The translations under genes were made by a program, and so were the position numbers. Of a DNA stretch of 64,000 nt, positions 12,301-44,897 are shown in pieces; position 1 is the stretch's first letter, and each line of letters opens with the position of its first letter. The DNA comes from Cloacibacillus porcorum (lineage in GTDB: Bacteria > Synergistota > Synergistia > Synergistales > Synergistaceae). The notes beneath the pieces are model-generated. The model had not been told where the DNA came from, ran no database searches, and was given only the letters and a program-made list of their open reading frames with translations. Location: NCBI RefSeq assembly GCF_001701045.1, contig NZ_CP016757.1:761501-825500 (forward strand), written 5' to 3'.

Positions 12301-13551
12301 AATCTTCACGCGGTGTTTACGGAAAATTTCGAGGACCGTACGGGGCGTTCGTACAATATCCCCAAGCTCATCCGCGAGAAGTTTGGTTCGGGAACGTGGA
12401 AAGCCGTACAGGAGTATATCAACCTCGTCAACCGTGACGGGCTGACGGTTGGCAATGATGTATTCAGCCGGATATCCAATACTCTTGGCAAAAATATGGC
12501 ATACACTTATCTTGCGGCAAATATAGCCACTGTCTTGAAACAGACGACGTCGATACCGCGCTTTCTCATTACCGCTGGACCAGCTCAAATCGGCTGCGCT
12601 ATCGGAGAATATTTGCAGCATCCGAAGCAATTCCTGGAAGATATCTACGTGATGGATCCGCAGATGAGAGACCGTGTGCCGAACGTTTTTTTCAGTATAA
12701 ACAAGTATGATCCTACGATAATGGGTGACGCGCAGTATGCCTATAAAAAATCAATTGACACGCTTATCGCACCCATTTCATATATGGATAGGGTCGTAGC
12801 GGCCATCGGTTGGAAGGCTACTTATGAGTCGAATGTAAAACGAGGGCTTTCTCATGACCAAGCGGTACGTGCCGCCCAGCGGGCTGTGCTTCTAACTCAG
12901 CAAACGCCGTCAATCAAAGACGCGCCCATGATATGGAGACAGAGCGGCCTTGCCAGGCTTTTGATGATTTTTACTTCAGACGCAGCCCCTGTACTCGGGA
13001 TGACGGTGTATGACCTTGCGCAATCGATAAAGCGAGGAGATCATCCAGCATCCCTGTGCAACATAGCTGCCTTTATGATAAGCGCGGTGGCAATGAAGGC
13101 GCTCGTGGACGGAATGCCCGACGACGACAATGATGAGAATTGGGGCGAATGGATCATGTCAGCCTTTTCAAGACAGGCGATTGAGTCGATTCCTCTGGTT
13201 GGAAAGGAGTTGATGTCTTTTTGGGAATCTTTCAGCGGGCAGGGCTATAAGGGAACGACCTATTCGGCGTTTGTCGCCCCGCTTTCAAAGCTCGCTCGCG
13301 GCTTTGACGATATGACGGCGGATGATTCGGACGAGATTAGCCCTTACACCGGCATGTCAAAGTTTGAAAGAGGCGCGTGGAACGCGATTGAGGGCATGTC
13401 TTTAATCACCACGCCACTACCGGTTGTAGGTTCAAAAAGGCTGTACCTTGCAACAAACAATGCGGCTGACGGAGACTTTATGAAAGCGCTGCAGGCAATC
13501 ATCGGACAGAGAAAAACGATGAAGAAATACTCTATATCGCCGGAGATATAA
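6349..13551 (+). CDS. Giant gp16-like polyvalent ejection protein with ART and zincin domains
   Basis: This is a 2400-residue protein; ATG 6349 has GGAGG seven bases upstream, better than ATG 6331. In order: two copies of LAQDPTY-x-x-ER (residues 8-18 and 41-51); a hydrophobic segment near 245-350; an ADP-ribosyltransferase-like domain of the polyvalent-protein type (about 685-1074, WHGSPHKFDKF, GEGAQAFGWGLYFAD, and KYLDGASR near its end); an LPD3-like region (about 1090-1250); an HEMGH zincin motif (His1312, Glu1313, His1316); coiled coils (about 1450-1600); and a long C-terminal part with hydrophobic helices near 2190-2260. Position after gp13/14/15-like genes makes it the gp16 equivalent, injected with the DNA. 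The enzymatic domains may act on the host early in infection. Bases about 8590-8900 are clearly AT-rich. Confidence 0.75.
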   Translation: MNEELFKLAQDPTYSIERGKEMEEETILPRNIKQEENLSRLAQDPTYTPERKGAAPVVEDYLFLSYPNKKEAITEARVRGYSDDVILKRLALYEKDMLLRKQPADVGSSFGRTDDSEAKRKRYLQMNRVGAISKVTGLDPKEVFIRIKEAEAVGVNPEAFFADEDFYRLAKSSGVVKERMSIAQNVINGVKISKLRDERGALYHDNLLRPSDGITKRIQEIDKEISELMPPAYNPGLNKAFFDAANSMGSWVDSQDLWMAAGGLAFGALAAPFIVPAAGVTLGTAAIGATAVSAVKMAYNTSMVSRMFLRESAEFNEDLVKEGVPQYAALPASALYGAVSAGIEFNMFSGVLSSFGKKIGGDMIMDYVRGYGKRAIKGFAVNPAIAPRLEKLTSVFMAKQALKSPSVAGTLKTGLIRFMGHVWDEDVEEMMQQAASIIIGEPLKMAMLPDYKHMTLSEALGSIADAGIEALPSLTLMMVPGSAYSTARNIGAVRSFQNSGEGKRVKAAENILTDEGAPVAENNLVFLGQDAVNEFFQSNPDIADEVVSALGITESNVIDELGEVAVRKEDYEKAAAAHPSFAKSLEMDTREGSGGITKREVAERLSKKLQDPLEQGDEYAKEAVEIRRNLTNELSAASRDDEASQANADLYSRYLYTLGKRLKISPKELHKMRVEKAEGGRANPLYNQSVWHGSPHKFDKFGLEHIGSGEGAQAFGWGLYFADNKEVSEWYRKKLSKKMTEQPAERHVYFNGNEIFLDNNINSNILDPSLNVSTEQFVLNRIAFDVENNYFHGFKALLRLLKEDLKQIAQSKPVYDPEREKLVIYPAKYKKRAQKALKWINENEGSITSNLIEPDNGQLFKVDIPDETHNNYLLWDKAVPAEQMEKVLKVIKERDVALPADVTFNGRSFAGMDYGEMIDELDEIGAAVFERIKTYVYYGDSLEDAINRARESYERDIILAGDDDLDKRSKYDEEMFSEQARVARDKLVWLEANKDSLSTSSYSLEAMVKTWGEKGRNLYEDLSDELGSDKEASLLLRDAGIAGIKYLDGASRHRGEGNYNYVIFDDQAVKVLETYYQPINTDVDLNRKIKVILSAEKFNDETALAVRNGEERRKFVSGLAGKYHNDSTGWELSLPPSAIKHSISSAVNNKNVDYRTSIEIISELPLIIKNAVLIESHDDGKNASNVKKIHRMFAPISFNNAEGVYVVMLTVKEMDGTFDMTVEGVYKAHDVKGVKNIPDTKPLLPAHEELPEGNVPDIDISIGEMLSNVKDNDGVAYLQRGKGNRGGITFNRKTGESLVTLFRTADRSTFIHEMGHLILEDLIRYGNKADPETEISHDLKTVLDYLEISNMDISDLDNLDETQQARLTEAHEKWARAMETYVMEGNSPSKALRPVLQKMRMWLLDIYSNAKFAGEELTPEVQDVFDRLLATPQEIDESYVAETTIGDLIKENELLKERLDNFEKEKKREINNKFRLGEALGYDRGKSEGERGAKFKRPGFDYKTKSKREAMFERFEKRKALLKDVEALLEGINHDVNDENVIWSVQQEMLEKLAESRQIVDLHDTELDRKRPGRRRRKSKFAAVYPTQKMKMAASLMEAIKQDLGLDYREINPADAPFVKLIEKLEAAGMTLNDLRLSDAKLSEIADLAKEISEIHARGRREYEVWRAGIVEQRNKINAELVSALDKTDGKAKQGPITGSSDLSKQYDGVMGRAEKLKDWTYANTLGAIRLFDWIGHGMGKFDSAFSKYCVDEVNMAYDTKLRHIHERHDKMNAKMKALGITLHDLSKRRTVGAYSYSVDELLSIYTATQNEKSLQALIFGNMRDLVPDSWFLDNAKNHDAQPPAEVLTHIGDCIKALTPQERELADYVIQEYDSHYERMNNIFIATFNQGMMKEENYTPMHRLEYTSNHGLVNADEAAYAKGVASQAGAQKAGLERGFLNPRVIPGKEINARHQAPMDLGLLSIWNTQVDAMEHTAAFARIGPNLHAVFTENFEDRTGRSYNIPKLIREKFGSGTWKAVQEYINLVNRDGLTVGNDVFSRISNTLGKNMAYTYLAANIATVLKQTTSIPRFLITAGPAQIGCAIGEYLQHPKQFLEDIYVMDPQMRDRVPNVFFSINKYDPTIMGDAQYAYKKSIDTLIAPISYMDRVVAAIGWKATYESNVKRGLSHDQAVRAAQRAVLLTQQTPSIKDAPMIWRQSGLARLLMIFTSDAAPVLGMTVYDLAQSIKRGDHPASLCNIAAFMISAVAMKALVDGMPDDDNDENWGEWIMSAFSRQAIESIPLVGKELMSFWESFSGQGYKGTTYSAFVAPLSKLARGFDDMTADDSDEISPYTGMSKFERGAWNAIEGMSLITTPLPVVGSKRLYLATNNAADGDFMKALQAIIGQRKTMKKYSISPEI

Positions 13552-31829: not shown

Positions 31830-31830
31830 A

Positions 31831-31865
31831 ATGGCCGCGCCGCTCTTATCCAGCGGTACGGCCAT
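31831..31865. terminator. Convergent terminator between lrgB and the GntR gene
   Basis: ATGGCCG-x-GCCGCT pairs with AGCGGTACGGCCAT across a short loop. It can serve lrgB on the plus strand and the catabolic operon on the minus strand. Confidence 0.7.
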
Positions 31866-31884
31866 CGTCTTATTGTAAAAAGCC

Positions 31885-32577
31885 TTAACGGGAACCGCCG
31901 GCCTCCTTCTCACCGTCTCTCCGCTCAAAGCAGCGTTCCATACCCTCGAGTATGTGGTTCATATGGTTGTCGAGGGTCGTCAGAAGGTCGGGTGCGTGGT
32001 TCCAGAGCGCGTCTACGATCTTCGCGTGTTCAAGGACGATCTTCTCCGGCTGGCGCTGCTCGTCCATCGCGAAGATTGATATCCGGATGATCTCGTCGGA
32101 GATGCTGCGCCAGATTTTTGTCAGCAGGGCGTTGCCGATGTGTTCGACGATCACGGAATGGAAGCCCACGTCGGCCCTGACGAAGGCGATAGGGTCGTTC
32201 TCCAGCGACGCCATCTTTTTCATTTCGACGTCTAGCTTTCCCGCCAGAGCGCGTCCCTCGCCCTTGGAAAAGGTCTCAGTCAGAGCGTAGTGTTCTATCA
32301 TCATGCGTACCGCGAATACGTCATGGCAGGCGGCGAGATTCAGGTCGCTTATCTTCGTGCGGCAGCGGTCCTCGCCGACGAGCCAGCCTTCCTGCATGAG
32401 GCGCTTTATCGCCTCACGTACCGGTGTTCTGCTGGTATTGTGCTCGGCCGCCACCTGTCGCTCCAGAAGGTATGTGTCCGGTTCGCGCCGCATCTCAATG
32501 ATGTCTTTTTTGATATTTTCGTAGATTATTGTGGATAGATTAACATCTGAGCCCATTCGTGAGCGCCGTCGAAACAT
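31885..32577 (-). CDS. GntR-family (FadR/FCD) transcriptional regulator
   Basis: This 230-residue protein has an N-terminal winged helix (about 15-75; TSRTPVREAIKRLMQEGWL) and a C-terminal FCD ligand-binding domain with the usual metal-binding pattern: Asp in RADVGFH, and His in LEHAKI and DNHMNHI. Such regulators respond to carboxylates. It is the last gene of an eight-gene minus-strand operon and would control it, probably through the palindrome near 39886-39899. Start options are ATG 32577 or ATG 32556. A five-codon in-frame minigene directly precedes ATG 32577. Confidence 0.85.
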   Translation of the reverse strand: MFRRRSRMGSDVNLSTIIYENIKKDIIEMRREPDTYLLERQVAAEHNTSRTPVREAIKRLMQEGWLVGEDRCRTKISDLNLAACHDVFAVRMMIEHYALTETFSKGEGRALAGKLDVEMKKMASLENDPIAFVRADVGFHSVIVEHIGNALLTKIWRSISDEIIRISIFAMDEQRQPEKIVLEHAKIVDALWNHAPDLLTTLDNHMNHILEGMERCFERRDGEKEAGGSR

Positions 32578-32595
32578 TTACGTTATAAACGGCAT
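32578..32595 (-). other. Five-codon leader minigene fused by a stop to the GntR start
   Basis: ATG CCG TTT ATA ACG TAA lies directly before the GntR ATG, in the same frame, and it is this minigene, not the GntR start, that has a strong AGGAGGT site at normal spacing. Ribosomes ending at TAA would restart at the adjoining ATG. Either a natural leader or a nonsense change in a longer GntR N-terminus. Confidence 0.5.
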
Positions 32596-32643
32596 CGCCA
32601 CCTCCTAGAGTATTACTTGTGCGGCCATTTTCGTGACCGGTGT

Positions 32644-33933
32644 CTACAGCAGTCGTCTTATTTTATCTGTTTTCTTAAGAAATAAGGGACTTATGCCCTC
32701 CGCTATATTTATTCTACCTCTTTTTTCCTCTATTTCATTCACCATATTCTCCGATACCTCTATCATTTTCAATTCGGAGGTATTCTTGATATGTATTATC
32801 TTCAACTCTTCCGCTGTGCTCCTACCAAGGGTCATCATCGAAAAGAGAATGACGTCGGCCTCGCTGTTAGCAATCATCGGTATCCGCCCCGCGGCGATGA
32901 CGCCGGCGGTGAGGGCGTTCGTATAGGTCGAAGAAAATTCTATCGACCGGGCCAGCTCCAAGGATATTATATCCGACATGCCGATGCCGATTGCGTTGCC
33001 GCCGGAGCAGGGCGTGATGCCGAGGACGGCGATCTGTTTCGCGGGCGGCGCGGGAAAGCCAGCGGCTCCCGTCGGCGGACGTCCCGTAACGTTGGGGTCC
33101 ATACCTGCGCCGCTGATGTTTTTGCCGATCTCGTCCACGAGCAGAAGGTCGGCCCCGCCTATATAAAGATTTGACTGCCGTTCCTTAGCTATAACCAGCA
33201 GCTCTTTTTCCCGCTTTATAATATCACGCGGCAAAATACATTCTGCGACCGCCAGCTCTTTGTCAGCGTTCTCCACCAGCGCGACGCCGAACAAGATCTT
33301 CCCCGTGCCGATAAAGACCTCCGCGGCCTCGGGCAGAAGGCGTCCGAAGCTGTCCGAGCCGGCCTTATGTACGGTCGCGGCTCCGACATGTTTGCCGAGG
33401 CCGACCATCATCATCTTGCAGAGGCCGCTTTCGTATTCCGCCTTGAAATCGGAATGGGCCTTGACCCGGTTGACGACGACTATATGGTCCGCGGCGAAGG
33501 CCGCGCCGCCGCAGGCGATCTTCACGCCGCTCTTTGTCTCGCCGATGAAGAGCGTCGACATATCGGAGACGATGGGGACTCCCATGCTCTCCTCGGTGAT
33601 GGAATATTCTTCGAGGACCTTTTTCTGTCCCTCCGCGGTGCCGCCTCCGTGGCTTCCCATCGCCGGGACGATAAATACGTTGGCGCCGCGGTCTTTAAGA
33701 AAATCAACGATCAGTTTCGTGACCGTCGTGATTTTAGCGATCCCCCGGCTGCCGGCGGTGACGGCGATCCTCCTGCCCTCAAGCGGCGGAAGCGGCAGCG
33801 CCGCCAGCGCGGCGGTCAGGTGTTCCCCGATATCGCCGATCTTTGAGTCGTCGAAGGACTGCCTCACCTCGCGCATCTGGATGGAGGGCACGCCGGTATT
33901 TTTCACATTATATCCGATAGGACTGAAATTCAT
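32644..33933 (-). CDS. LarA-like (DUF2088) protein, lactate racemase superfamily
   Basis: This 429-residue protein belongs to the LarA/DUF2088 superfamily. Supported segments are VTAGSRGIAKITTVTKLIVD, VPAMGSHGGGTAEGQKKVL and NRVKAHSDFKAEYESGLCKMM with GLGKHVGAA. LarA enzymes use a nickel pincer cofactor to racemise or epimerise 2-hydroxy acids. No larB, larC or larE cofactor genes are in the window, so the cofactor would have to be made elsewhere or be absent. It sits between a D-2-hydroxyacid dehydrogenase gene and the GntR regulator, which fits action on a 2-hydroxy acid. True activity is unknown. Confidence 0.75.
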   Translation of the reverse strand: MNFSPIGYNVKNTGVPSIQMREVRQSFDDSKIGDIGEHLTAALAALPLPPLEGRRIAVTAGSRGIAKITTVTKLIVDFLKDRGANVFIVPAMGSHGGGTAEGQKKVLEEYSITEESMGVPIVSDMSTLFIGETKSGVKIACGGAAFAADHIVVVNRVKAHSDFKAEYESGLCKMMMVGLGKHVGAATVHKAGSDSFGRLLPEAAEVFIGTGKILFGVALVENADKELAVAECILPRDIIKREKELLVIAKERQSNLYIGGADLLLVDEIGKNISGAGMDPNVTGRPPTGAAGFPAPPAKQIAVLGITPCSGGNAIGIGMSDIISLELARSIEFSSTYTNALTAGVIAAGRIPMIANSEADVILFSMMTLGRSTAEELKIIHIKNTSELKMIEVSENMVNEIEEKRGRINIAEGISPLFLKKTDKIRRLL

Positions 33934-33974
33934 GGCCGTTTCTCCCCTTACATATAAATGATCAAAATACGAAT

Positions 33975-34009
33975 GGGCCGGTACGTCTCTTATTTCGTTA
34001 TACCGGCCC
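33975..34009 (-). terminator. Hairpin between LarA-like and dehydrogenase genes
   Basis: GGGCCGGTA (33975-33983) and TACCGGCCC (34001-34009) form a strong stem in a 107-base gap within the operon. The T-run after it is poor, so it may be an attenuator or mRNA-stabilising element rather than a full stop. Confidence 0.5.
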
Positions 34010-34040
34010 GCTGAAACTGCTGTGTGAAAAAAGGCGCCGC

Positions 34041-35048
34041 CTAAAATTTCCGTGGATTGGCGGGGGAGTTGGACTGACCGATAAGCTTATCCCCGTTGAT
34101 GTAATCGACGATCTCCTGCGCGGCGACAGTCCGCGCCTTGCGGTTGGAGCCCGTGCTGTACCACCCCGTATGGGGGGTGAAGATCACCTTGGGGTTGGAG
34201 AAGAGCGGATGGGAAAAGTCTCCCTTTTCCACGTCGAGTTCATATTCGATGACGTCAAGCGCCGCGCCGGCGATCACGCCGTTGTTCAGCGCCTCTTCCA
34301 GGGCGTCCCGGTCCACATGGGGGCCGCGCGCGAGGTTGATCAGATAGGCGTCGCTCTTCATCATCGCGAGGGTCTCCCTGTTGATCATATGCCGTGAATC
34401 CTCCGTCAGCGGCAGGTGGAGGCTCACGATGTCCGCCTGGCGCAGCCCCTCTTCGAGGCTCTCTACTATTTCGACGCCCAGTTCGGCGGCGGCCTTCCTG
34501 TCGGCGTAGGGGTCGTAGGCGATGACCCTGCCGAACAGCGGCTTTATATGCGTGGCAGTGAGGCGCGCTATCTTTCCGAAGCCGACGAGAAAGACCGTCA
34601 TTTCACGCAGGGGTCTCAGCTCAAAGCTCGTGTGGTTCCATATTCTTTCGATCTTGATCTTGTCGTTGTAATAGGGGATCTTGCGCGCCACCGTCAGCAT
34701 CAGGGCGGCGGCGTGCTCCGCCACCTCCGGCGTGCTGCAGTCGGGGACGTTGCAGACCATGATGCCGTTATCTTCGGCATATTTCACGGGGATGTTGTCG
34801 AGGCCGATCCCCTGGCGTGAGATGATCTTGCATTTCTTCATCTTCGCGACCTCATCGACTGAGAGGTCGTTGTTGGCGATGAGAAGCGCGTCGAGCTTGT
34901 CCAGGACGTTCCACAGTCCCTCTTTATCCTGTTCGTCGATGACGACGGCGTCGAACCCATAGGGCTGGAGGATCGGCTTTTCCATCTCCCAGTCGCCGTT
35001 TCTGTTGAACATACTGTAGATACCAACAAGATATTTTGAATTTTGCAT
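34041..35048 (-). CDS. D-2-hydroxyacid dehydrogenase (CtBP/SerA-like)
   Basis: This 335-residue NAD-dependent enzyme has the Rossmann motif FLVGFGKIARLTA (third Gly is Ala) near residue 150, catalytic Arg in INLARGPHVD, Glu in LDVIEYE, and His in FTPHTGWYS. The family converts D-2-hydroxy acids and 2-keto acids. The longer frame to 35081 would begin at TTG inside dctM; ATG 35048 is chosen and lies 25 bases after the dctM stop. Together with the LarA-like and nitrilase genes it suggests a pathway through a 2-hydroxy acid. Confidence 0.85.
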   Translation of the reverse strand: MQNSKYLVGIYSMFNRNGDWEMEKPILQPYGFDAVVIDEQDKEGLWNVLDKLDALLIANNDLSVDEVAKMKKCKIISRQGIGLDNIPVKYAEDNGIMVCNVPDCSTPEVAEHAAALMLTVARKIPYYNDKIKIERIWNHTSFELRPLREMTVFLVGFGKIARLTATHIKPLFGRVIAYDPYADRKAAAELGVEIVESLEEGLRQADIVSLHLPLTEDSRHMINRETLAMMKSDAYLINLARGPHVDRDALEEALNNGVIAGAALDVIEYELDVEKGDFSHPLFSNPKVIFTPHTGWYSTGSNRKARTVAAQEIVDYINGDKLIGQSNSPANPRKF

Positions 35049-35073
35049 GGAGGTCACTACCTTTTCAGTTAGT

Positions 35074-36354
35074 TTAGGCAAAGTACTTTAAAAGTACTGT
35101 CGATATCGCGGGAATATATGTGAACAGCATCAGGTTCACCAAAAGCACGATGATCATCGGCGTCACGGCGGAGATGATCGATTTTATGGGAATGTCCTTC
35201 TGCAGGCTCTGGGCGACGAAGAGGTTGACCCCCAACGGAGGCGTCAGCATACCGATCGCCATGTTGACCACCATCACGACCCCGAAATGAATGAGGTCGA
35301 TGTTGGCCTGCTGCAAAAGCGGCAGAAATATCGGACCGAGGATGATGATCGCGGCGTTGGGCTCCATCAGGCACCCAGTCACCAGAAGCATTATATTCAG
35401 GAAGAGCAGCAGTGAATAGCGGCTCTGCGCCAGGCTGGAGAGCGCCTCGGCGATCATCAGGGGCACCTGCTCGGTGGTCAGTATCCAGCCCATCGCCGTC
35501 GCGGTGGCGATGATGAGCAGTACCATCGCCGAGGTGGTACCGGCCTCGTAGAAGCTGATATAGGTATTTTTTATATTGAGCTCTTTGTAGACGAAGAAGC
35601 CGACGAAGAGGCTGTAGATACAGGCTACGGCGGCCGACTCCGTGGGGGTGAATATCCCGCCGTAGATACCGCCGAGAATAATTATCGGCATGAGAAGGCC
35701 CCAGATCGACTTTTTCAAAGAGGAGAGGAATCCGCGGAAGGTGGGCTTCACGCTGCTCTTCCAGCCGTTTATCCTCGACACTATATAGCAGAACAGCATC
35801 AGGGAGAGTCCCATTATGACGCCGGGGATGATGCCCGCGATGAAGAGCTTGCCGATGGAGGCGCCGATGGAGACCCCGTATGAGACGAAAAGGATACTCG
35901 GGGGGATGATGACGCCGATTATTCCCGCGGCGGCCAGGATTGCGACGGAGAAGGACTTCCCGTAACCCTCTTTAATCATCGCCGGTACCATGATTGAGCC
36001 TATCGCCACCACCGTCGCCGGCGCGGAGCCGGAGATGGCGGCAAAAAACATGCAGGCGAGGATCGAGACGTTTGCCAGTCCGCCGTACATGCCGCCCACG
36101 ACATTCATCGAGAGGTCTATCAGCCTCTTTGATATTCCGCCCCATTCCATGAGCCTTCCGGCGATCATAAACAGGGGGATCGCCAAAAGTGTGAAGGAGT
36201 CGGTGCCGGTGAACATTCTCTGCACCAGCAGAAGCAGCGGCACGCTGCCGTCCATATAGAGGGCGAGGAAGGAGGCCGCGCCGAGACAGATGGCGATAGG
36301 AACGTTCATGATGCAGAGTATCGCCAGGGCGAAGGAGAGTACCTGTACGACCAT
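35074..36354 (-). CDS. dctM: TRAP transporter large permease (DctM-like)
   Basis: This 426-residue protein has about 12 transmembrane helices and typical DctM features: IPLFMIAGRLMEWGGIS near residue 60, a Gly/Pro-rich FAAISGSAPATVVAIG repeat and a later PNAAIIILGPIFLPLL. It is the channel subunit of a Na+-coupled TRAP system. It starts two bases after dctQ. Confidence 0.92.
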   Translation of the reverse strand: MVVQVLSFALAILCIMNVPIAICLGAASFLALYMDGSVPLLLLVQRMFTGTDSFTLLAIPLFMIAGRLMEWGGISKRLIDLSMNVVGGMYGGLANVSILACMFFAAISGSAPATVVAIGSIMVPAMIKEGYGKSFSVAILAAAGIIGVIIPPSILFVSYGVSIGASIGKLFIAGIIPGVIMGLSLMLFCYIVSRINGWKSSVKPTFRGFLSSLKKSIWGLLMPIIILGGIYGGIFTPTESAAVACIYSLFVGFFVYKELNIKNTYISFYEAGTTSAMVLLIIATATAMGWILTTEQVPLMIAEALSSLAQSRYSLLLFLNIMLLVTGCLMEPNAAIIILGPIFLPLLQQANIDLIHFGVVMVVNMAIGMLTPPLGVNLFVAQSLQKDIPIKSIISAVTPMIIVLLVNLMLFTYIPAISTVLLKYFA

Positions 36355-36356
36355 GA

Positions 36357-36872
36357 TTACACCGCCTCTGTCTCTGTTTTGCCGCGCCCCGATATAAGGT
36401 CAGAGAGGCCTACCAGGAACTTTATGAGGTAATGCGCCGCCATCAGCGCGCAGCCGAAGGGGACCGCGGCGTACGCCCAGGTGATCGGCACGCCCAGCGC
36501 CGGAGAGACCGTCCCCGCGGCGGAGAGCTTGAAGATGAAACCGACCCCTATCCAGGTGACGATCACGGAAAAGAGAATCCCCACGATGTCGACGGCGAGG
36601 GTGTCGATCTTCTGCGCCCTTTTGGGGAGTATCTGCACAAAGGCCTCTATGCCGATATGAGCGCCCTTTTTCACCGCGAGGCCGGCGCCGACAAAGGCGG
36701 CCCAGACGCTCAGATAACGGGCAAACTCTTCGACCCACGTAAGCCCCAGCTGGATGACGAAGCGCTCAACCACGGCGACAAATATCGCGATCGTCATGAT
36801 AAAGAGCAATACAGCCACGATACATTCCTCTATCTTCATTAACTTCTCATCGATCTTTCGTAAAAAATCCAT
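36357..36872 (-). CDS. dctQ: TRAP transporter small permease (DctQ-like)
   Basis: This 171-residue protein has four transmembrane helices and the DctQ hallmark TWVEEFARYLSVWAAFVGAGLAVKKGAHI. It forms a complex with DctM. It lies two bases upstream of dctM and 64 bases after dctP; a hairpin fills that gap. Confidence 0.92.
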   Translation of the reverse strand: MDFLRKIDEKLMKIEECIVAVLLFIMTIAIFVAVVERFVIQLGLTWVEEFARYLSVWAAFVGAGLAVKKGAHIGIEAFVQILPKRAQKIDTLAVDIVGILFSVIVTWIGVGFIFKLSAAGTVSPALGVPITWAYAAVPFGCALMAAHYLIKFLVGLSDLISGRGKTETEAV

Positions 36873-36903
36873 ATAATTTCGCTCCTCTCACAACTATAGG
36901 AGA

Positions 36904-36928
36904 GGGGCGGCTAAGGTCCCGCCGCCCC
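36904..36928 (-). promoter_or_regulatory. Intercistronic hairpin between dctP and dctQ
   Basis: GGGGCGGC (36904-36911) and GCCGCCCC (36921-36928) form a strong stem just after the dctP stop, with no T-run on the minus strand. Such hairpins usually stabilise the upstream mRNA, so that the binding protein is made in excess over the permease. Confidence 0.65.
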
Positions 36929-36936
36929 CTGTTCTT

Positions 36937-37950
36937 TTATTTACCCGCTTCGGAGGCGGCGTTCATTACCTTTTTAAGGAAATCCTTGCCGATCTCCTTC
37001 TCTATGAGCGGCAGGGAGCCGGCCTGGGTGACATTCTGGAATTCCGCCAGCTCCGCCGGCGACAGCTCCGTGATCTGCACGCCGTCCTTAGCCATGACCT
37101 CGAGGGATCTCTTTTCGTCTGCGGTGTTGAATACACGCTGTCTCTCGCTCCAGGCCTTTGCGCCGTCTCGGACGATCTGCTGCTGTGCGGGTGTAAGCTT
37201 CTTGAAAATGCCGCCGTTGACGATGAGGACGAAGGGGCTGTAGAAATGTCCGTCAAGCGTCAGGTACTTCTGTACCTCGTGGAGGCGGCTGGACTCCGTC
37301 AGGGAGACGGGGTTTTCCTGCCCGTCGACGACGCCCTGGGAGAGCGCGGTGTAAAGCTCGCCGAAGGGGATCGGCGTCGGCGTCGCGCCCATCGATTTTA
37401 TCATCGCGATGTGCGCCGGGTTTTCCTGGACGCGTATTTTTAGTCCCGCGATATCCTTGGGGGACTTTATCGGCCTGACCCTGTTAGTGAAATGGCGGAA
37501 GCCGTTCTCGCCGTAGGCGAGCATCACCGTACCGGTTTTGGCGCCGAATTCATCGCGGATCTGGACGCCCATCGGGCCGTCAAGGAAGCTGTAGGCCGCC
37601 TTTTTGTTGGCGAAGAGATAGGGGATGTCCATCACGAGCATCTGCTTGTCCACTGTGGAAAGCGTGCCGGTGCTGATAGAGCACATCTGTATCGTCCCCA
37701 TCTGCACGCCTTCAAACTGTTCCCTTTCGTTTCCCAGCTGGTTGTTGGGGAATATCTTTACCTTTATTTCGCCGTTTGACTTATCTTCGACATACTTCTT
37801 AAAGGCCTTACAGCCCTCGTCGTTGGTCGCTCCGACCGCGGGCGTCGGTCCCGAGTGGCTCAGTTTTATTTCGACCGCCGCGTTGGCGCTTACGGAGAGA
37901 GCGAGGACGAGTATCGTTATCATAATAAAAATGCTGGTAATTTTCTTCAT
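36937..37950 (-). CDS. dctP: TRAP substrate-binding protein (DctP-like)
   Basis: This 337-residue periplasmic protein has a signal peptide (about residues 1-24, cleavage after ANA). DctP landmarks are LSHSGPTPAVGATNDEGCKAF, IPYLF, NGFRHFTNRVRPIKSP and GLKIRVQENP, where the Arg normally salt-bridges a carboxylate of the ligand, and GVVDGQENP. The binding of an organic acid is therefore likely, though some TRAP proteins bind other ligands. It is the third gene of the operon after two nitrilase-superfamily genes. Confidence 0.92.
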   Translation of the reverse strand: MKKITSIFIMITILVLALSVSANAAVEIKLSHSGPTPAVGATNDEGCKAFKKYVEDKSNGEIKVKIFPNNQLGNEREQFEGVQMGTIQMCSISTGTLSTVDKQMLVMDIPYLFANKKAAYSFLDGPMGVQIRDEFGAKTGTVMLAYGENGFRHFTNRVRPIKSPKDIAGLKIRVQENPAHIAMIKSMGATPTPIPFGELYTALSQGVVDGQENPVSLTESSRLHEVQKYLTLDGHFYSPFVLIVNGGIFKKLTPAQQQIVRDGAKAWSERQRVFNTADEKRSLEVMAKDGVQITELSPAELAEFQNVTQAGSLPLIEKEIGKDFLKKVMNAASEAGK

Positions 37951-37981
37951 AAGGCTGCCTCCCTGGTTTTATTATTGGATG

Positions 37982-38977
37982 TTAGATATCTTTTTCTTTT
38001 TCGGAGTAAAACTCGACGTGGTTCAGCGGCGTTTCGTTGACATAAAGTTTGAAGATGTCCGGCCTTGCGTAATGGCCGACGGGATCAAAATCTATCCGCG
38101 CCTCCGCGAGCATATTCATGTCGAGGTCAGCGACGAGCACCTCTTCCGAATCATATATCGGCCCCGCGAGATACTCGCCGAAGGGGCTGATGATCGCGCT
38201 GCCGCCGTTCGTAACCGAACCGGCCTCGTTGATGATGCCGGCGGGAATATCCGCCTCGTCGACCCTGGTCTCGATCTCGCTGGAATAGTCGGAGAGTTTA
38301 TAGCAGAGGTTGGCGCTCAAAACGAAGCATCCGCCCTCGCGGGCGATGTGGCGTGCGGTGCAGAGCCATGATTCACGGTAATCGGCGGTCGGCGCCAGAT
38401 ATATCTCGATGCCTTTGCTGTACATCGCCGTGCGCAGCAGCGGCATGTAGTTTTCCCAGCAGATGACGGCGCCGTAGCGTCCGAAGGGGGCGTCGATGAC
38501 GGTGAGGTCGCTGGCGTCGCCCTCTCCCCAGACCACCCGCTCTCCCGCGGTCGGCTTCAGCTTGCGGTGGCGGCCAAGGTATTCGCCGTCCGGCCCGAAG
38601 AAGAGCATCGAGCAATAGAGGGTGCCGTGTCCGCGCTCGCGCTCGATGCAGCCCATCGCCAGATGGACCTTATATTTCGCGGCCGCCTCCGCAAGGGCGT
38701 TGAAAATAGGGCTGCCGACCTCGACCGAATTGTCGTAATACCGCCGCCAGTCGCGGCGTCCCGCCGGCGTCCGCCAGCCGATCACGGAGCCGAAGGTGAT
38801 CGCCTTTGGATAACATGGGATATACGCCTCGGGAAACATCACCAGCTCGCAGCCCTTCGAGGCCGCCTCCTCAATATAAAGCAGGCCCTTCTTCAGGCAT
38901 GCCTCCGCGTCCATCAGTACGGGGGCCAGCTGGACGACGCCCACTCTGACCTTGTTTTGCTCTCGGTTTCTCTTCAT
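37982..38977 (-). CDS. Nitrilase (carbon-nitrogen hydrolase superfamily, branch 1-like)
   Basis: This 331-residue protein has the catalytic triad Glu50 (FPEAYIP), Lys139 (HRKLKPT) and Cys173 (ICWENYMPL), plus the second Glu146 (GERVVW) typical of true nitrilases. The HRKLKPT and ICWENYMPL motifs are those of the nitrilase branch rather than amidase branches. Nitrilases convert nitriles to carboxylic acid and ammonia. ATG 38977 is chosen because AAAGGGG is seven bases upstream; ATG 38983 lies too close to it. It is next to a TRAP transporter, so the nitrile or its product is probably imported. Confidence 0.85.
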   Translation of the reverse strand: MKRNREQNKVRVGVVQLAPVLMDAEACLKKGLLYIEEAASKGCELVMFPEAYIPCYPKAITFGSVIGWRTPAGRRDWRRYYDNSVEVGSPIFNALAEAAAKYKVHLAMGCIERERGHGTLYCSMLFFGPDGEYLGRHRKLKPTAGERVVWGEGDASDLTVIDAPFGRYGAVICWENYMPLLRTAMYSKGIEIYLAPTADYRESWLCTARHIAREGGCFVLSANLCYKLSDYSSEIETRVDEADIPAGIINEAGSVTNGGSAIISPFGEYLAGPIYDSEEVLVADLDMNMLAEARIDFDPVGHYARPDIFKLYVNETPLNHVEFYSEKEKDI

Positions 38978-39038
38978 TTGCATTCCCCTTTCATGAGCTG
39001 TTGAGCGGTTTTTCTGTCTTATAAGTTTTGAAATTTAT

Positions 39039-39857
39039 CTATTTGATGATGTCGTGGTACAGGTGAGGAAGTCTCTTTTCAAATACTTTAAGGAATTGGC
39101 GGTTTTGATTGATGTTGGTGACGTCGATCTCGGAGAATTTGCCGTCCAGCGTTCCCGAGCACTCCGTCAGAACGTCGCCGGTCGGCGAAGATACGAAGGA
39201 GCCGCCGCCGAAATCGATATCTCCCGAATAATCACAGTTGTTGACGGCGACGGTATAGAACATGTTTTCGATCGCGTGGGCCCTGATCATCGTCCTGTAA
39301 AGATCCATGCGCGCCCGCGTCCACTGGCTGCAGATAAAGAGCGCTTCGGCGCCCCTGAGGGCGTATATCCTTATCCATTCGGGGAAACGGATGTCGTAGC
39401 AGATGATGCTGCCGCATTTGATGCCGTCCATATCAAAGAGGCAGGGTTTTTCACCGTGGTCGAAGACGCCGTCCTCGACGGTGATGAAGGGAACGAGGTG
39501 TACCTTGTCGTAAAAGGTGACCAGCTCTCCATGTGGGTTGACGATGAGCGCCCGGTTATAATAATTGCCGCCGCTCTTGGCCATCACGGAGCCGCCGGTG
39601 AACCAGCAGCCGTATCTCTTTGCCAGGCCGGAGAGAAATTCCGTAGTCTCCGCGGCCTCGCCGTCGGCCAGCTTCTCCACGGAATCGAGGGCGTATCCTG
39701 TGTCCCACAGCTCGGGAAGGACCAAAGCCGTCGTGAGTTCGCCGGGGGTGTAGTACCTTTTCATCCAATCCTCGACGGTCTCCATGTTTTTCTTCCTGTC
39801 TCCCAGAACGACGGGAATTTGTACCAAACCGACTCTAAAGGCTTTTTTTTCTTCCAA
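39039..39857 (-). CDS. Carbon-nitrogen hydrolase, amidase type (omega-amidase/Nit-like)
   Basis: This 272-residue protein has Glu49 (LPELWDTGY), Lys118 (YDKVHLVPF) and Cys153 (ICYDIRFPEW), the triad of the nitrilase superfamily in its amidase form, similar to omega-amidase/YafV. It would release ammonia from an amide of a 2-keto or carboxylic acid. It is the first gene of the operon; the start is TTG 39857 with GGGAGAAGG upstream. It is distinct in sequence from the next gene, so two steps or two substrates are served. Confidence 0.85.
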   Translation of the reverse strand: MEEKKAFRVGLVQIPVVLGDRKKNMETVEDWMKRYYTPGELTTALVLPELWDTGYALDSVEKLADGEAAETTEFLSGLAKRYGCWFTGGSVMAKSGGNYYNRALIVNPHGELVTFYDKVHLVPFITVEDGVFDHGEKPCLFDMDGIKCGSIICYDIRFPEWIRIYALRGAEALFICSQWTRARMDLYRTMIRAHAIENMFYTVAVNNCDYSGDIDFGGGSFVSSPTGDVLTECSGTLDGKFSEIDVTNINQNRQFLKVFEKRLPHLYHDIIK

Positions 39858-39884
39858 AATCGCCTTCTCCCTTCATAATTTAAA

Positions 39885-39901
39885 ATTTGGAGTACCAAAA
39901 T
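39885..39901 (-). promoter_or_regulatory. PdhR/FadR-like palindrome, candidate GntR operator
   Basis: TTTGG-AGTA-CCAAA (39886-39899) is palindromic and resembles the TTGGT-n-ACCAA core of FadR/PdhR-type GntR operators. It lies 18 to 33 bases downstream of the -10 box of the operon promoter, where binding would block transcription. The operon encodes a GntR/FCD regulator. Confidence 0.55.
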
Positions 39902-39918
39902 AATTTTAGAGCACACTT

Positions 39919-39947
39919 ATTATAAATTTACTATTTTTGTGTGTCAA
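39919..39947 (-). promoter_or_regulatory. Consensus sigma-70 promoter of the nitrilase-TRAP operon
   Basis: On the minus strand TTGACA (39942-39947) and TATAAT (39919-39924) are both perfect and separated by exactly 17 bases. The operon's first start codon is about 60 bases downstream. Confidence 0.88.
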
Positions 39948-40201
39948 CTATTATTTTTATAAGGTCAATATAAAAACTATAGTTTCTAATATTCGGTTAA
40001 AGTTCTAACGAAAGGGGTAAATGGTGGCTGGAATTTGATTTTTGGTGAATTGCGTCAGCAAAAGTTTGTTGCTTTCGCACAAAAGACGAATCTTACGGCG
40101 GCGCGGCTTGAGGCCGACCGGAGCGCCGTTCATAACGGTGAAACCGTTTTTATGACGTCCGTTCTTTTGTCCCTTATCTGTTCAAAAGCCTGTTCATAAA
40201 A
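39948..40201. other. Intergenic region upstream of the nitrilase operon
   Basis: About 250 bases between the nitrilase promoter and the aminotransferase terminator. It has a small hairpin (AACGGT/ACCGTT near 40134-40148, then TTTTT). One frame on the plus strand stays open for about 70 codons to 40199 but has no acceptable start and no recognisable product. Confidence 0.5.
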
Positions 40202-40227
40202 AAGAGCCTGCCGCGCGGCAGGCTCTT
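40197..40227 (-). terminator. Terminator after the branched-chain aminotransferase
   Basis: AAGAGCCTGCCG (40202-40213) pairs exactly with CGGCAGGCTCTT (40216-40227); on the minus strand six T follow. Confidence 0.92.
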
Positions 40228-40253
40228 ATATGTGCGTTTGCTTTGATGCCGCT

Positions 40254-41321
40254 CTACGCGACGCGCACCGTCCAGCCGAAGCTGTCCTCTGTGCGGCCGA
40301 ACTGCAGGTCTGTGAGCGCGTGATAAAGTTTCAGGGCCAGCGGACCGCTCTTGAAGCCGCCGATGGTGTACTGTTCGTCCTCCGTCGCGAACTCGCCGAT
40401 AGGCGAGATGACGGCGGCGGTGCCGCAGCACCAGGCCTCTTCCACGTCGCCGTTCTTGATCCCCGTGAGGATCTCCTCAAGCGTGACGAGGCGCTCTTCG
40501 ACCTCGATGTTCCACGATTTGAGCATCTCAATGACGGATTTTCTCGTGATGCCCGGCAGCACAGTTCCCAGCAGCGCGGGGGTCACGACCTTGTCCTTGA
40601 TCTTGAACATGATGTTCATGCCGCCGCCCTCTTCGACATATTTTTTCTCCACGCCGTCGAGCCAGAGCACCTGGGCGAAGCCGTTGGCCTCGGCGCGTTC
40701 GCCCGCGCGGAGGGAGCCGGCGTAGTTGCCGCCGCACTTCGCGAAGCCGGTGCCGCCGCGTACCGCGCGCACGTCCTCTTTCTCGATGAATATCTTAACG
40801 GGGTTGACACCCTCGGGGAAGTAGGGGCCGACGGGCGAGAGGATGATCGCGAAGGTACACATCGAGGGCGCGTGCACGCCTAGCTTGGGGTCGGTGGCGA
40901 AGAGGAAGGGCCTGATGTAAAGGGTGGTATCCTCACCGGCCGGCACCCAATCGCTGTCGGTCCTGACAAGAGCCAGCAGTGCCTCCATGAAGAGTTCCGG
41001 GTCTATCTGCGGCAGGCACATGCGCTCCGCTGACCTGTTCATGCGGGCGATGTTTTCCTGCGGGCGGAAGAGCTGCACCGATCCATCCGGCCTTCTGTAG
41101 GCCTTCAGCCCCTCGAATACCTCTGGCGCGTAGTGAAGGACCATCGCCGCGGGCGATATCTCAAAGGGCGCGAACGGTACGATGCGCGGGTCAAACCAGC
41201 CCTTGTCCTTTTCATAATTCATCACAAACATGTGGTCGGTGAAGTATTTCCCGAAAGACAGATTGCCGCTGTCCGGCTTTTCCTTGGGATGCGCCGTTTT
41301 TTCGATTCTGATCTCTGCCAT
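40254..41321 (-). CDS. ilvE: Branched-chain amino acid aminotransferase
   Basis: This 355-residue fold-type IV PLP enzyme has EVFEGLKAYRRPDG (about 67-80), the PLP lysine Lys195 in FAKCGGNYAGSL, and WCCGTAAVISPIGE near the C-terminus. BCAT interconverts Leu, Ile and Val with their 2-keto acids. ATG 41321 has an AAGAGGG site; a longer frame is open to 41597 but has no site. It is a single gene with its own terminator. It borders both the 2-hydroxyacid cluster and the Etf-linked dehydrogenase, which would give the matching keto acids. Confidence 0.92.
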   Translation of the reverse strand: MAEIRIEKTAHPKEKPDSGNLSFGKYFTDHMFVMNYEKDKGWFDPRIVPFAPFEISPAAMVLHYAPEVFEGLKAYRRPDGSVQLFRPQENIARMNRSAERMCLPQIDPELFMEALLALVRTDSDWVPAGEDTTLYIRPFLFATDPKLGVHAPSMCTFAIILSPVGPYFPEGVNPVKIFIEKEDVRAVRGGTGFAKCGGNYAGSLRAGERAEANGFAQVLWLDGVEKKYVEEGGGMNIMFKIKDKVVTPALLGTVLPGITRKSVIEMLKSWNIEVEERLVTLEEILTGIKNGDVEEAWCCGTAAVISPIGEFATEDEQYTIGGFKSGPLALKLYHALTDLQFGRTEDSFGWTVRVA

Positions 41322-41598
41322 TGTGATTTTCCCTCTTTTCATATTATCTGGCGGACGATAGAACGGTAACGCTGACGTCCGCCATGTTTTTGCCGATTCG
41401 CTCCTGCGGAGAGACCTATGCGCCGTCTTTTCCGCCGCCGTCCAATCCACGGCCAAAGCCCAATTTGCCGGAGTGCCGGAGACGCGGGCCTCATTTAGAT
41501 AAGTATACATCTTTTTTGCCAAAGATTTGTAACCGAAGGACACGGATATGCGCCTCCGCGTCCGCTGCCTGCGGACGCGGAAGCCCCGCCGCGTCAAT

Positions 41599-41640
41599 AA
41601 AAAGTGCGCGCCGCCCGCTTGGGGGAGGCGCGCACTTTGG
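41599..41640 (-). terminator. Terminator of the etfB-etfA-dehydrogenase operon
   Basis: AAAGTGCGCGCC (41601-41612) pairs with GGCGCGCACTTT (41627-41638); on the minus strand TTTTTATT follows. The gap from 41322 to here holds no supported gene. Confidence 0.88.
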
Positions 41641-41650
41641 CGTCTAAGTA

Positions 41651-43081
41651 TCAGTCAAGCGGCGAGAACATCTTGCCGGGGTTCATGATGTTGTACGGGT
41701 CAAAGGCCCGTTTGATGCCCTGAAGGAGTTCTATCTCCGCCGGTGATTTGCTGTCCATCAGCACCTTTTGCTTGACGTGGCCGACGCCGTGCTCGCCGCT
41801 GCCTACGCCGCCGAGGGCGATCGCCTCACGGATGAGGGCGGTGAAGAATTCCTCGGCGTAGCGCGCCCAGTGTTCGGGGGTCATATCCGCCGGTTTAAGC
41901 GGTATCGGGTGGATGTTGCCGTCGCCGATGTGCGAGATGATGCCGATCTCGATGTTCCATTCGGCGCTTATCTCTTTTATCCTGCGTATCATCTCGGGCA
42001 CTGAGGAGAGCGGCACCATGAGGTCGCCCGAGGCGCAGGCGTGCGGATCGCGCGCGCGCATTCCCTCCAGCCCGTTCTGGCGCACGTTCCACATCGCCGC
42101 CGAGTCGGTGCGGCTTTCGGCGACGAAGACCTCGAAGGCGCCGCAGTCGAGGCAGATCTTACCGACGGTCTCGTACCCATCTTCAAGCTGCGCCTCCGTG
42201 TCGCCCTCGACCTGTATCAGCAGGTAGCCCTCGCTCCTGTCCTGTTCGGGCAGGGTGCAGCCGAGGTATTCGGTGGTGTATTTGACGAGGTTTTTGTCCA
42301 TAAATTCGCAGGAGATGATGCGCTTGCCCGAGCCGATCACCTTGGCGACGCTCTCTACGAGCTCTTCCAGCGTCGGATAGCAGGCGAGCAGGTTTACCGT
42401 CTTGCCCGGCTTAGGCTCCAGGTTGACGATGAGCTTGGTGACGACGGCAAGGGTCCCCTCGCTGCCGGCTAGCAGGTTTATGAGGCTGTAGCCCCAGGTG
42501 TCTTTGCGGAAACGGCCGCCGAGATTGATTATCTCGCCGGAGGGCAGGACGGCCTCGGCGCCGAGGACGTGGCGGCGGGTGTTGCCGTAGCGGATGACTT
42601 TGCCGCCTCCGGCGTTCGTCGCAAAGTTGCCGCCGATGAAGCTCGTCTCGGTGCTCATTGGATATCCCGCGTAGAGAAAACCCTCCTCCGCGGCGGCGCG
42701 GCAGAGATCGTTGGTGACGACCCCCGGTTCGACGACGGCGACGCGGTTGATCTTGTCTATCTCCAGTATCCTGTTCATACGCTCAAGCGAGAGGACGATG
42801 CCGCCAGCGAGCGGCACCGCACCTCCGTTAAGACCGCTGCCCGCGCCGCGCGGCGTTACGGGGATATGTTCACGGCTGGCGATCTTCATAACCGCCGATA
42901 CCTGCGCGGTATCCGCCGGTTTGACGACCGCCTCCGGCATGTGTCCCCAGATGCGCCCAGCCTGGTCCCAGGCGTAGTTGTCGAGGGCCTCGGAGTCGTT
43001 CATGATGACGCCGCCGGGGCCGACGGCCGCGAGCAGCTCTTGATATATTTCCTCAGTTATTGCGCCGTACTGCTCCATCAA
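41651..43081 (-). CDS. FAD-linked 2-hydroxyacid (lactate-type) dehydrogenase, GlcD family
   Basis: This 476-residue protein has the FAD_binding_4 domain (about 45-190; PRGAGSGLNGGAVPLAGGIV, then ETSFIGGNFATNAGGGKVIRYG) and the FAD-oxidase C domain (about 230-470) with ISHIGDGNIHP and GGVGSGEHGVGHVK. These are features of GlcD/Dld-like enzymes that oxidise D-lactate, glycolate or related 2-hydroxy acids. It overlaps etfA by four bases, as in the Etf-dependent lactate dehydrogenase of Acetobacterium (LctD). Start ATG 43081 or 43078. Confidence 0.9.
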   Translation of the reverse strand: MMEQYGAITEEIYQELLAAVGPGGVIMNDSEALDNYAWDQAGRIWGHMPEAVVKPADTAQVSAVMKIASREHIPVTPRGAGSGLNGGAVPLAGGIVLSLERMNRILEIDKINRVAVVEPGVVTNDLCRAAAEEGFLYAGYPMSTETSFIGGNFATNAGGGKVIRYGNTRRHVLGAEAVLPSGEIINLGGRFRKDTWGYSLINLLAGSEGTLAVVTKLIVNLEPKPGKTVNLLACYPTLEELVESVAKVIGSGKRIISCEFMDKNLVKYTTEYLGCTLPEQDRSEGYLLIQVEGDTEAQLEDGYETVGKICLDCGAFEVFVAESRTDSAAMWNVRQNGLEGMRARDPHACASGDLMVPLSSVPEMIRRIKEISAEWNIEIGIISHIGDGNIHPIPLKPADMTPEHWARYAEEFFTALIREAIALGGVGSGEHGVGHVKQKVLMDSKSPAEIELLQGIKRAFDPYNIMNPGKMFSPLD

Positions 43082-44082
43082 TGACGTTCCTTATATTTTT
43101 TGACGGCCTCGATAAGGGCGTTCAGCACCTCTATCGCGTCGCCCTGGACGCTGAGGTCCGCGACGCGGAAGATGGGGGCCTCGGGGTCCTGGTTGACGGC
43201 GACGATCGTCTCCGCGCCCGACATTCCCGCGATATGCTGTACGGCCCCCGATATCCCGAAGGCGAGGTAGAGCCGCGGGGTGACCGATTTGCCTGAGAGT
43301 CCCACCTGCGCCGAATAGGGCGCCCAGCCGAGGTCCACGGCCATGCGCGAGGCGCCGACAGAGCCGCCGAGAAGGCGGGCGAGCTCTTCCAGCCGCGCGA
43401 AGTTTTTCGCGTTTTTCATGCCCTTTCCGCCCGCGACGATGATCTCCGCCTCCTGCAGCGGCAGTCCGACCGACTGATCGGGGGCGAATTTTATAAATTT
43501 GATAAGGGAGGCGAGGGTGTCTTCTCTTGGCTTGAACTCTATCACTTCGCCTCTGCGCGAGCCGTCCGCGGGCAGGGGGCGCTTCGACTTGGGGCGCACG
43601 GTGCACATCTGCGGGTCGCGTCCCTTTGTCTTGATGTCGGCCATGACGTTGCCGCCGATCGCGGGCCGTGTCTGGATGAGCCGTTTGGTGGCGGGGTCGA
43701 TCGCCATCTCCGTGCAGTCCGCCGTCAGCCCGCAGCCGAGGCGGGCGCTGAGCATCGGCATCACTGTGCGTCCCTGGGTGGTCGCGGAGGCGATGAGGAT
43801 CGTCGGTTTGTATGTCTCGATGAGGTCGGCGAGCGTTGCAACTTCGATGTCCGCCTTAAAGTTTTCAAATTCCGGGGCTTCCGCGACGTATATCTTATCC
43901 GCACCGTAGGCGGCGAGCGCCGCGGCCTGCTCTTTGATGTTGCTGCCGATCACGACGCTGGCCAGCGGCGCTCCGAGCGCGTCCGCCAGTTCGCGTCCCC
44001 AGGCGAGCAATTCGCGCGATACGGGGTGGACCCTGCCGCCGCGAACTTCGGCGAGCGTCCAGACCTCTGCAATATTCTTCAT
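43078..44082 (-). CDS. etfA: Electron transfer flavoprotein alpha subunit
   Basis: This 334-residue protein has the N-terminal Etf domain and the C-terminal FAD-binding domain with GLSGKSVTPRLYLAFGISG, QHIAGMSGAETIVAVNQDPEA and PIFRVAD. It lacks the N-terminal ferredoxin-like cluster found in the alpha subunit of the Acetobacterium LDH/Etf complex, so it is of standard length. It accepts electrons from the partner dehydrogenase. It overlaps both neighbours by four bases. Confidence 0.92.
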   Translation of the reverse strand: MKNIAEVWTLAEVRGGRVHPVSRELLAWGRELADALGAPLASVVIGSNIKEQAAALAAYGADKIYVAEAPEFENFKADIEVATLADLIETYKPTILIASATTQGRTVMPMLSARLGCGLTADCTEMAIDPATKRLIQTRPAIGGNVMADIKTKGRDPQMCTVRPKSKRPLPADGSRRGEVIEFKPREDTLASLIKFIKFAPDQSVGLPLQEAEIIVAGGKGMKNAKNFARLEELARLLGGSVGASRMAVDLGWAPYSAQVGLSGKSVTPRLYLAFGISGAVQHIAGMSGAETIVAVNQDPEAPIFRVADLSVQGDAIEVLNALIEAVKKYKERH

Positions 44083-44897
44083 TTCGTATCGCCTCCCGTC
44101 TCTTCCAGACAGTTCTTTTCTTCCAGCAGATTCATGATTTCTTCTATCGCGGTACCGATGCCGTCGGCGGCGATTATCTTGCGTCCCTGGCGCGTCACCT
44201 TCGGATATGTGACGTTGACGACCTGGGTCGCGGAGCCGGTGAGCCCCGTCTCCGCCGCATCCATCGAAAGGGCCTCCGCCGTCTCCAGCGGTACTTCGGC
44301 CGCCTTGGCGCGGAGTTTGCCGCCCAGAGTGCAGAGGCGCGGGATGTTCATCTCTTTTACGGGTATGACCATCGCGGGCAGCGGCGATTCGACCGTCTCG
44401 TGGCCGCCCTCTACGGCGCGCACGACGCGGATCTTTTCATCGCTGATCTCCTCGATTGCGCTGACGTATGAGAGGACGCTGATCCCCATCAATTCCGCGC
44501 AGGCCGGGCCGACCTGTCCTGTTTCGCCGTCGGTCGCGCGCTCGCCCGCGAAGAGGAGGTCGAAGGGGCCCGCCTTTAGCAGCGCCCGGGAGAGGGTGCG
44601 GGCCGTGGCGAGGGTGTCCGCGCCGCCGAATTTTCTGTCGGAGAGCAGCAGTCCCCTGTCGCAGCCCATCGCGATGGCGTATTTGACGGCCTTCTGTGCC
44701 GCCGCCGGTCCCATGGTCACCGCCGTTATCTCAACTCCCGGCCTGGATTCTTTGATCCTGACCGCCGCCTCGACCGCGTGCAGGTCGAGCGGATTGAGCT
44801 CGGCCTCGACGCCGTCGCGTATCATCGTGCCCGTCGTTTCGTCTATTTTCACCGTGTCCACAGCGGGCACCTGTTTTACCAGCACTGCAATTTGCAA
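44079..44897 (-). CDS. etfB: Electron transfer flavoprotein beta subunit
   Basis: This 272-residue protein has the EtfB start (MQIAVLVKQVPAVDTVKID, LNPLDLHAVEAAVRIKE), VTMGPAAAQKAVKYAIAMGCDRG, and AGERATDGETGQVGPACAE. It binds the second flavin or nucleotide in the heterodimer. The first gene of the operon, it starts at TTG 44897 with an AAAGGAGGAAGG site; a small palindrome lies upstream. Confidence 0.93.
   Translation of the reverse strand: MQIAVLVKQVPAVDTVKIDETTGTMIRDGVEAELNPLDLHAVEAAVRIKESRPGVEITAVTMGPAAAQKAVKYAIAMGCDRGLLLSDRKFGGADTLATARTLSRALLKAGPFDLLFAGERATDGETGQVGPACAELMGISVLSYVSAIEEISDEKIRVVRAVEGGHETVESPLPAMVIPVKEMNIPRLCTLGGKLRAKAAEVPLETAEALSMDAAETGLTGSATQVVNVTYPKVTRQGRKIIAADGIGTAIEEIMNLLEEKNCLEETGGDTK

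Follow-up and report, generated by a model that had tools for sequence, protein, structure and literature searches.

Cyanide detoxification is the setting in which NIT4 nitrilases are known, and the transamination of glutamine and asparagine is that of the omega-amidases; the Nit2 family usually acts on the omega-amides of C4 and C5 acids. Relatives of both enzymes lie side by side in the stretch of DNA considered here, a window of 64,000 nucleotides from the genome of Cloacibacillus porcorum, a member of the Synergistota whose genome is a single contig of 3,585,187 bases. Eight co-directional genes on the minus strand (39857–31885, from the list of open reading frames) encode, in order, a Nit2-like amidase (nit2), a NIT4-related nitrilase, the DctP, DctQ, and DctM subunits of a tripartite ATP-independent periplasmic (TRAP) transporter, a hydroxyacid dehydrogenase (HADH), a LarA-like protein (larA), and a GntR-type regulator (gntR). 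All of these except larA recur in a second genus with their order unchanged, and the seven-gene cassette may serve for scavenging, as a unit that is regulated and probably moves horizontally.

Both plant NIT4 and the NIT4 of a cyanide-degrading Pseudomonas act on 3-cyanoalanine, from which NIT4 enzymes form the acid and also the amide (PMC8567248). The window nitrilase shares with these beta-cyanoalanine nitrilases, whose plant member is its nearest solved relative, the four active-site residues and an interface Arg, but the small clade to which it belongs diverges at columns that are conserved in more than 90% of relatives. In Pseudomonas, nit4 is located in the cio cyanide cluster (PMC8567248), whereas the window nitrilase is accompanied by a TRAP transporter, an amidase, and a dehydrogenase. 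Human Nit2 hydrolyzes 2-oxosuccinamate and 2-oxoglutaramate, and also L-2-hydroxysuccinamate, which yields L-malate; 2-hydroxysuccinamic acid is a plant product (PMC5485471). Like Nit2 of the transaminase-omega-amidase pathway, the window amidase is a nitrilase-superfamily amidase with a Glu-Lys-Cys triad, but its kin among the Synergistota are found in molybdenum-hydroxylase clusters, and the cassette contains no transaminase.

The TRAP-linked clusters for the catabolism of hydroxy and sugar acids also harbor DctPQM, a D-2-hydroxyacid dehydrogenase, and a GntR/FCD regulator, to which the window cassette adds two nitrilase-superfamily hydrolases. The LarA-like protein passes the model for group 22 of the LarA superfamily, but its gene is not conserved in the cassette. 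A sequence-only reading of this DNA had known of no described pathway with this exact combination, and a limited search of the open-access literature likewise found no described pathway with this gene set. Judged by its sequences, the cassette looks like an apparently undescribed combination of known families and not like a new kind of system.

A Conserved Seven-Gene Cassette

Every family of the locus is matched above its Pfam cut-off (CN_hydrolase twice, DctP, DctQ, DctM, 2-Hacid_dh/2-Hacid_dh_C, Lar_N, and GntR with FCD). The sequence-only reading was therefore right to recognize a D-2-hydroxyacid dehydrogenase, a LarA-like protein, and a GntR/FCD regulator, and equally so in its two distinct, intact nitrilase-superfamily enzymes, both with complete catalytic residues, and its full TRAP transporter, the three subunits of which are encoded together (Table 1).

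When other genomes were searched for the gene order, as that reading had proposed, the order Nit2–NIT4–DctP–DctQ–DctM–hydroxyacid dehydrogenase–GntR was found to be identical in G169, a genome from another genus of the same family, where it is flanked by unrelated genes and lacks the LarA-like gene. Similarity between the window and G169 begins and stops with the cassette genes. Among 188 Synergistota genomes, G169 is the only one with close relatives of the nitrilase (90% identity), DctP (71%), and the full-length dehydrogenase (74%); the amidase (76%), DctM (83%), and the regulator (58%) are also shared, and of all the cassette proteins the nitrilase is the best conserved, at 90% versus 58–83% for the others. 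A contig end in G136, a genome that is 65% complete, has the regulator adjoining the dehydrogenase (62% and 70% identity, respectively) with no LarA between them. The association of these genes is far beyond chance, given that the same seven-gene order is present in G169, and, because the G169 cassette is without a LarA-like gene, the heritable unit defined by these comparisons is nit2-nit4-dctPQM-hadh-gntR, with larA excluded.

In G137, from the same genus as the window, the lrgB (85%) and aminotransferase (92%) genes that flank the cassette here are only 181 bp apart, and similarity to the window ends at 31830 and restarts at 40257. The cassette together with larA is one 8.4-kb present/absent block, in which the GC content is 0.55–0.56 in comparison to ~0.61 on both sides. 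The absence of the island from G137, combined with the unrelated flanks in G169, suggests horizontal movement of the cassette, the alternative being loss in G137.

The distribution of the cassette is narrow. No cassette was found outside the Synergistota when the genome contigs of 84,980 species were searched with the nitrilase alignment; the best 80 loci are all at or below 54% identity, and in none of these 80 are amidase, TRAP, and dehydrogenase genes found together with the nitrilase. Within a plasmid collection, nitrilase relatives are at or below 52%, and TRAP or HADH genes occur in none of the three neighborhoods inspected.

Table 1. Features of the cassette region, in window positions
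Feature	Position	Strand	Evidence
Sigma-70-like promoter, TTGACA-17-TATAAT	39947–39919	minus	12/12 consensus match, the sole one on this strand in the region
Candidate regulator site TTTGGTACTCCAA, just 3' of the promoter	39887..39899	minus	weak evidence
Nit2-like (omega-amidase-like) carbon-nitrogen hydrolase	39039..39857	minus	Pfam CN_hydrolase; triad E49/K118/C153
NIT4-related true nitrilase	37982..38983, probable start 38977	minus	best PDB match plant NIT4 6i00
TRAP solute-binding protein DctP	36937..37950	minus	TIGR00787 and NF037995 above cut-off; PF03480
Stem-loop between dctP and dctQ	36880..36936	minus	-24.9 kcal/mol, z -1.9
TRAP small permease DctQ	36357..36872	minus	PF04290
TRAP large permease DctM	35074..36354	minus	TIGR00786 above cut-off; PF06808
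D-2-hydroxyacid dehydrogenase, phosphoglycerate-dehydrogenase-like	34041..35048	minus	PF02826/PF00389
Stem-loop between dehydrogenase and larA-like gene	33965..34040	minus	-25.4 kcal/mol, z -3.0
LarA-like nickel-pincer isomerase, NPN isomerase group 22	32644..33933	minus	NF052515, 454 bits, cut-off 400
GntR/FCD transcriptional regulator	31885..32577	minus	PF00392 and PF07729
8.4-kb island	31831..40256		present in the window, missing at this site in G137

The Nitrilase and the Amidase

The match of the nitrilase to plant NIT4 scores 326 bits, with the next solved relative at 187. Alignment with homologues reveals a complete Cys-Glu-Lys-Glu tetrad (E52/K141/E148/C175 in the numbering of the open reading frame), and the CWEN motif is retained. 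Counted from the second Met, which is better spaced from AAAGGGG, these residues become E50/K139/E146/C173; the triad Glu50/Lys139/Cys173 of the sequence-only reading corresponds to this numbering, and its amidase triad Glu49/Lys118/Cys153 is found exactly as given. R71 aligns with the helix-interface Arg of NIT4 (PMC6214922), although Arg occupies this position in 95 of 96 relatives and is not discriminating. A quick maximum-likelihood tree, built from 98 sequences, unites the enzymes of the window and G169 in a single clade (support of 100), the stem of which is 1.45 changes per site long. The same tree, quick and with this long stem, groups the clade with plant NIT4 and enzymes that are mostly proteobacterial (SH-aLRT 93), and the other nitrilases of the Synergistota lie apart, such that placement beside NIT4 is provisional. 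The match to the Nit6803 family, TIGR04048, is 206 bits and does not reach the cut-off of 502.6.

Kinship with NIT4, seen in both the PDB match and the tree, would also suit detoxification rather than catabolism: the nitrilase would clear beta-cyanoalanine or other nitriles of dietary plants, and the acids formed would be processed by the TRAP transporter and the dehydrogenase. NIT4 does act on 3-cyanoalanine (PMC8567248), and plant-toxin degraders exist among the Synergistota (PMC12366334). However, a dedicated importer and a GntR/FCD regulator of its own suit uptake for growth better than defense, no cyanoalanine synthase or cyanide-related gene is found in the island, and the conserved residues of the nitrilase diverge, all of which makes detoxification improbable.

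Second copies of the amidase are found elsewhere in the C. porcorum genome (83%) and in G169 (79%). The C. porcorum copy, in common with copies of 74% identity in relatives, adjoins the subunits of an Xdh-type molybdenum hydroxylase and a BenE-type transporter, and the neighbors of the G163 copy also include YqeB, PreA-like reductase, and DUF2848 proteins. Because copies sit in molybdenum-hydroxylase clusters, the amidase probably serves this lineage more generally in the removal of amide nitrogen, rather than being nitrile-specific. The clusters themselves (L163 141-14146, L164 289-9481, and L161 663-9294), which encompass an XdhCAB-type molybdenum hydroxylase, YqeB, a PreA-like reductase, a BenE transporter, and DUF2848, look like a cluster for anaerobic N-heterocycle degradation; in L163 a second set, GntR-DUF2848-cupin-Nit2, comes after the amidase cluster.

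The Transporter, the Dehydrogenase, and the LarA-Like Protein

The predicted model of DctP aligns to the solute-binding proteins of organic-acid TRAP transporters with Z up to 34.7, and on this basis DctP resembles receptors for sugar acids and other organic acids. Near structures include 4PDH, 4PDD, 4P9K/4PAK, and 4NQ8, which presumably carry D-erythronate or pantoate, an unconfirmed lead only. In the dehydrogenase, the catalytic R241, E270, and H293 are present along with the NAD-binding domain (PF02826). Homologues of this enzyme with 39-45% identity adjoin TRAP, aminotransferase, and amidohydrolase or aldehyde dehydrogenase genes.

The LarA-like protein harbors R63, H95, H160, K173, and H189, which are invariant in the group alignment and appear to correspond to the NPN-binding and catalytic residues R75, H108, H174, K184, and H200 of LarA, in a register set by a weak Mar2 profile match (E 0.12); the C-terminal half of its structure model is of low confidence. 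A search for biosynthesis of the nickel-pincer nucleotide (NPN) cofactor, covering LarE and LarC, gave matches over the cut-off for both in the genome. LarC mediates nickel insertion for this cofactor, and its halves match ~880 kb apart, at G000:C1:294812-295690 (beside LarE) and 1176843-1177244. A group-22 LarA is present elsewhere in G169, no LarA with more than 50% identity to the window copy was found in the phylum, and no published activity was found for NPN isomerase group 22. As other group-22 genes adjoin TRAP or dehydrogenase genes, a role for the LarA-like protein on a 2-hydroxy acid is plausible, but optional for the cassette. Racemization of a 2-hydroxy acid, which the sequence-only reading had included in the pathway, was rejected as a core step, since the G169 cassette manages without this gene; it is also missing from the HADH-GntR junction of G136, and a stem-loop stands ahead of it here. 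A further group-22 LarA of this genome (L034 1539-17610) is bordered by a second D-2-hydroxyacid dehydrogenase, a TAXI-type TRAP transporter, and what by eye appear to be genes for a complex of the glycine/betaine-reductase type.

Transcription and Neighboring Genes

The proposal of a single minus-strand operon stands in part. The genes are co-directional behind one full-consensus promoter, and no comparable minus-strand promoter is found within the operon; a 9/12 match stands at 32738, ahead of the regulator gene; the inclusion of larA is undermined by the stem-loop that precedes it and by its position outside the conserved unit. Because stem-loops occupy both the dctP/dctQ and the dehydrogenase/larA gaps, larA-gntR may be transcribed more weakly or separately. 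The stem-loop ahead of larA and the weak promoter match at 32738, together with the absence of larA from the G169 order and a further LarA22 copy of this genome that directly adjoins its own GntR gene (L035), would fit a split in function, with the nitrilase, amidase, TRAP, and dehydrogenase genes as one operon and LarA with GntR as part of a different hydroxy-acid pathway. Such a division is nevertheless very doubtful: in G169 and the G136 fragment GntR directly follows the dehydrogenase gene, which argues that the regulator belongs to the core and that only LarA is detachable. The candidate regulator site has one match in the window against 0.08 expected, and its core, TGG-ACTC-A, is also kept upstream of the G169 operon.

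A strong terminator at 40227–40202 closes the gene upstream of the cassette. Because of this terminator, and because the aminotransferase gene is in place in G137 without the island, the upstream etfBA–glcD–aminotransferase genes were rejected as members of the operon. This run (window 40254-44897), consisting of etfB, etfA, a glcD-type FAD oxidase, and a branched-chain aminotransferase-like gene with the terminator at its end, is possibly an electron-confurcating hydroxyacid dehydrogenase unit. At 6331-13551, in a stretch of lower GC content (0.48-0.50), an open reading frame of 2406 amino acids stands beside small phage-like genes, and the left part of the window may thus contain a prophage.

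A Possible Scavenging Pathway

In the route that we infer, the TRAP transporter would import a short organic acid whose carboxylate is adjoined by a 2-hydroxy (or 2-oxo) group and whose opposite end bears a nitrile or amide. Through a bifunctional nitrile-to-amide step, the NIT4-type nitrilase would form both acid and amide from the nitrile, and the Nit2-type omega-amidase would cleave the amide, so that all of the nitrogen is released as ammonia. Flow would then pass through the dehydrogenase, interconverting 2-hydroxy and 2-oxo acid, to deliver a dicarboxylate into central metabolism, and the LarA-like accessory may let the other enantiomer be used. The best candidate substrates would be 2-hydroxysuccinamate and 3-cyanolactate, the latter being the 2-hydroxy analogue of beta-cyanoalanine, from which malate or oxaloacetate would be formed. 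The amidase would gain its substrate because NIT4 enzymes make amide as well as acid (PMC8567248), and the activity of human Nit2 toward L-2-hydroxysuccinamate (PMC5485471) would provide a chemical link between the amidase and the hydroxyacid dehydrogenase. Together, an organic-acid-type TRAP receptor, a 2-hydroxy-acid dehydrogenase, and these two hydrolases would suit a short 2-hydroxy acid that ends in a nitrile or amide.

Support for a scavenging cassette comes from the order shared with a second genus, the presence or absence of the block as a whole, the complete catalytic residues, the NIT4 kinship, and the likeness of DctP. Several findings weigh on the other side. Complete cassettes number two, in the window and G169, and neither hydrolase reaches an NCBIfam equivalog cut-off. 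The close amidase copies (74-83%) in molybdenum-hydroxylase/BenE clusters are without a nitrilase, and the amidase is thus not tied to nitriles. The nitrilase departs from columns kept in at least 94% of relatives (G61A, P90G, G157A, T159D, Q226L, and P234S), such that the NIT4 substrate is not transferable to it. Since the nitrilase is also the best-conserved protein of the cassette, we read this as a specificity that has changed and is under strong constraint.

The same departures, and the long isolated branch, could instead mean that the nitrilase reaction itself has changed, for example to that of an amidase, with the transported substrate an amide or a plain hydroxy or sugar acid and no nitrile involved. 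The acids bound by DctP relatives and the gene neighborhoods of the HADH homologues are in keeping with this, but the intact C-E-K-E residues and CWEN motif, along with the strong constraint on the nitrilase across two genera, speak against it, and we consider it possible but rather unlikely. The scavenging explanation for the seven genes as a whole is a serious possibility that falls a little short of probable. The family-level reading, in which an acid bearing a nitrile or amide is imported and deaminated, merits much the same, slightly lower, confidence. A dedicated and mobile pathway by which a naturally occurring 2-hydroxy acid with a nitrile group is used anaerobically, in which TRAP uptake is followed by nitrilase, omega-amidase, and D-2-hydroxyacid oxidation, and in which NIT4 has been neofunctionalized, is unlikely, and the specific C4 substrates 3-cyanolactate or 2-hydroxysuccinamate are less likely still.

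The cassette represents a small and directly testable gene set, in which the island and the larA-free copy in G169 show which genes matter. Such a cassette, in which NIT4 and an omega-amidase are coupled to TRAP uptake and hydroxyacid oxidation, would suggest that some natural nitrile or amide of acidic nature serves the Synergistota as food. If the mobile nitrile pathway were true, it would mean a nitrile nutrient in the gut that has so far gone unrecognized, handled by a neofunctionalized NIT4.

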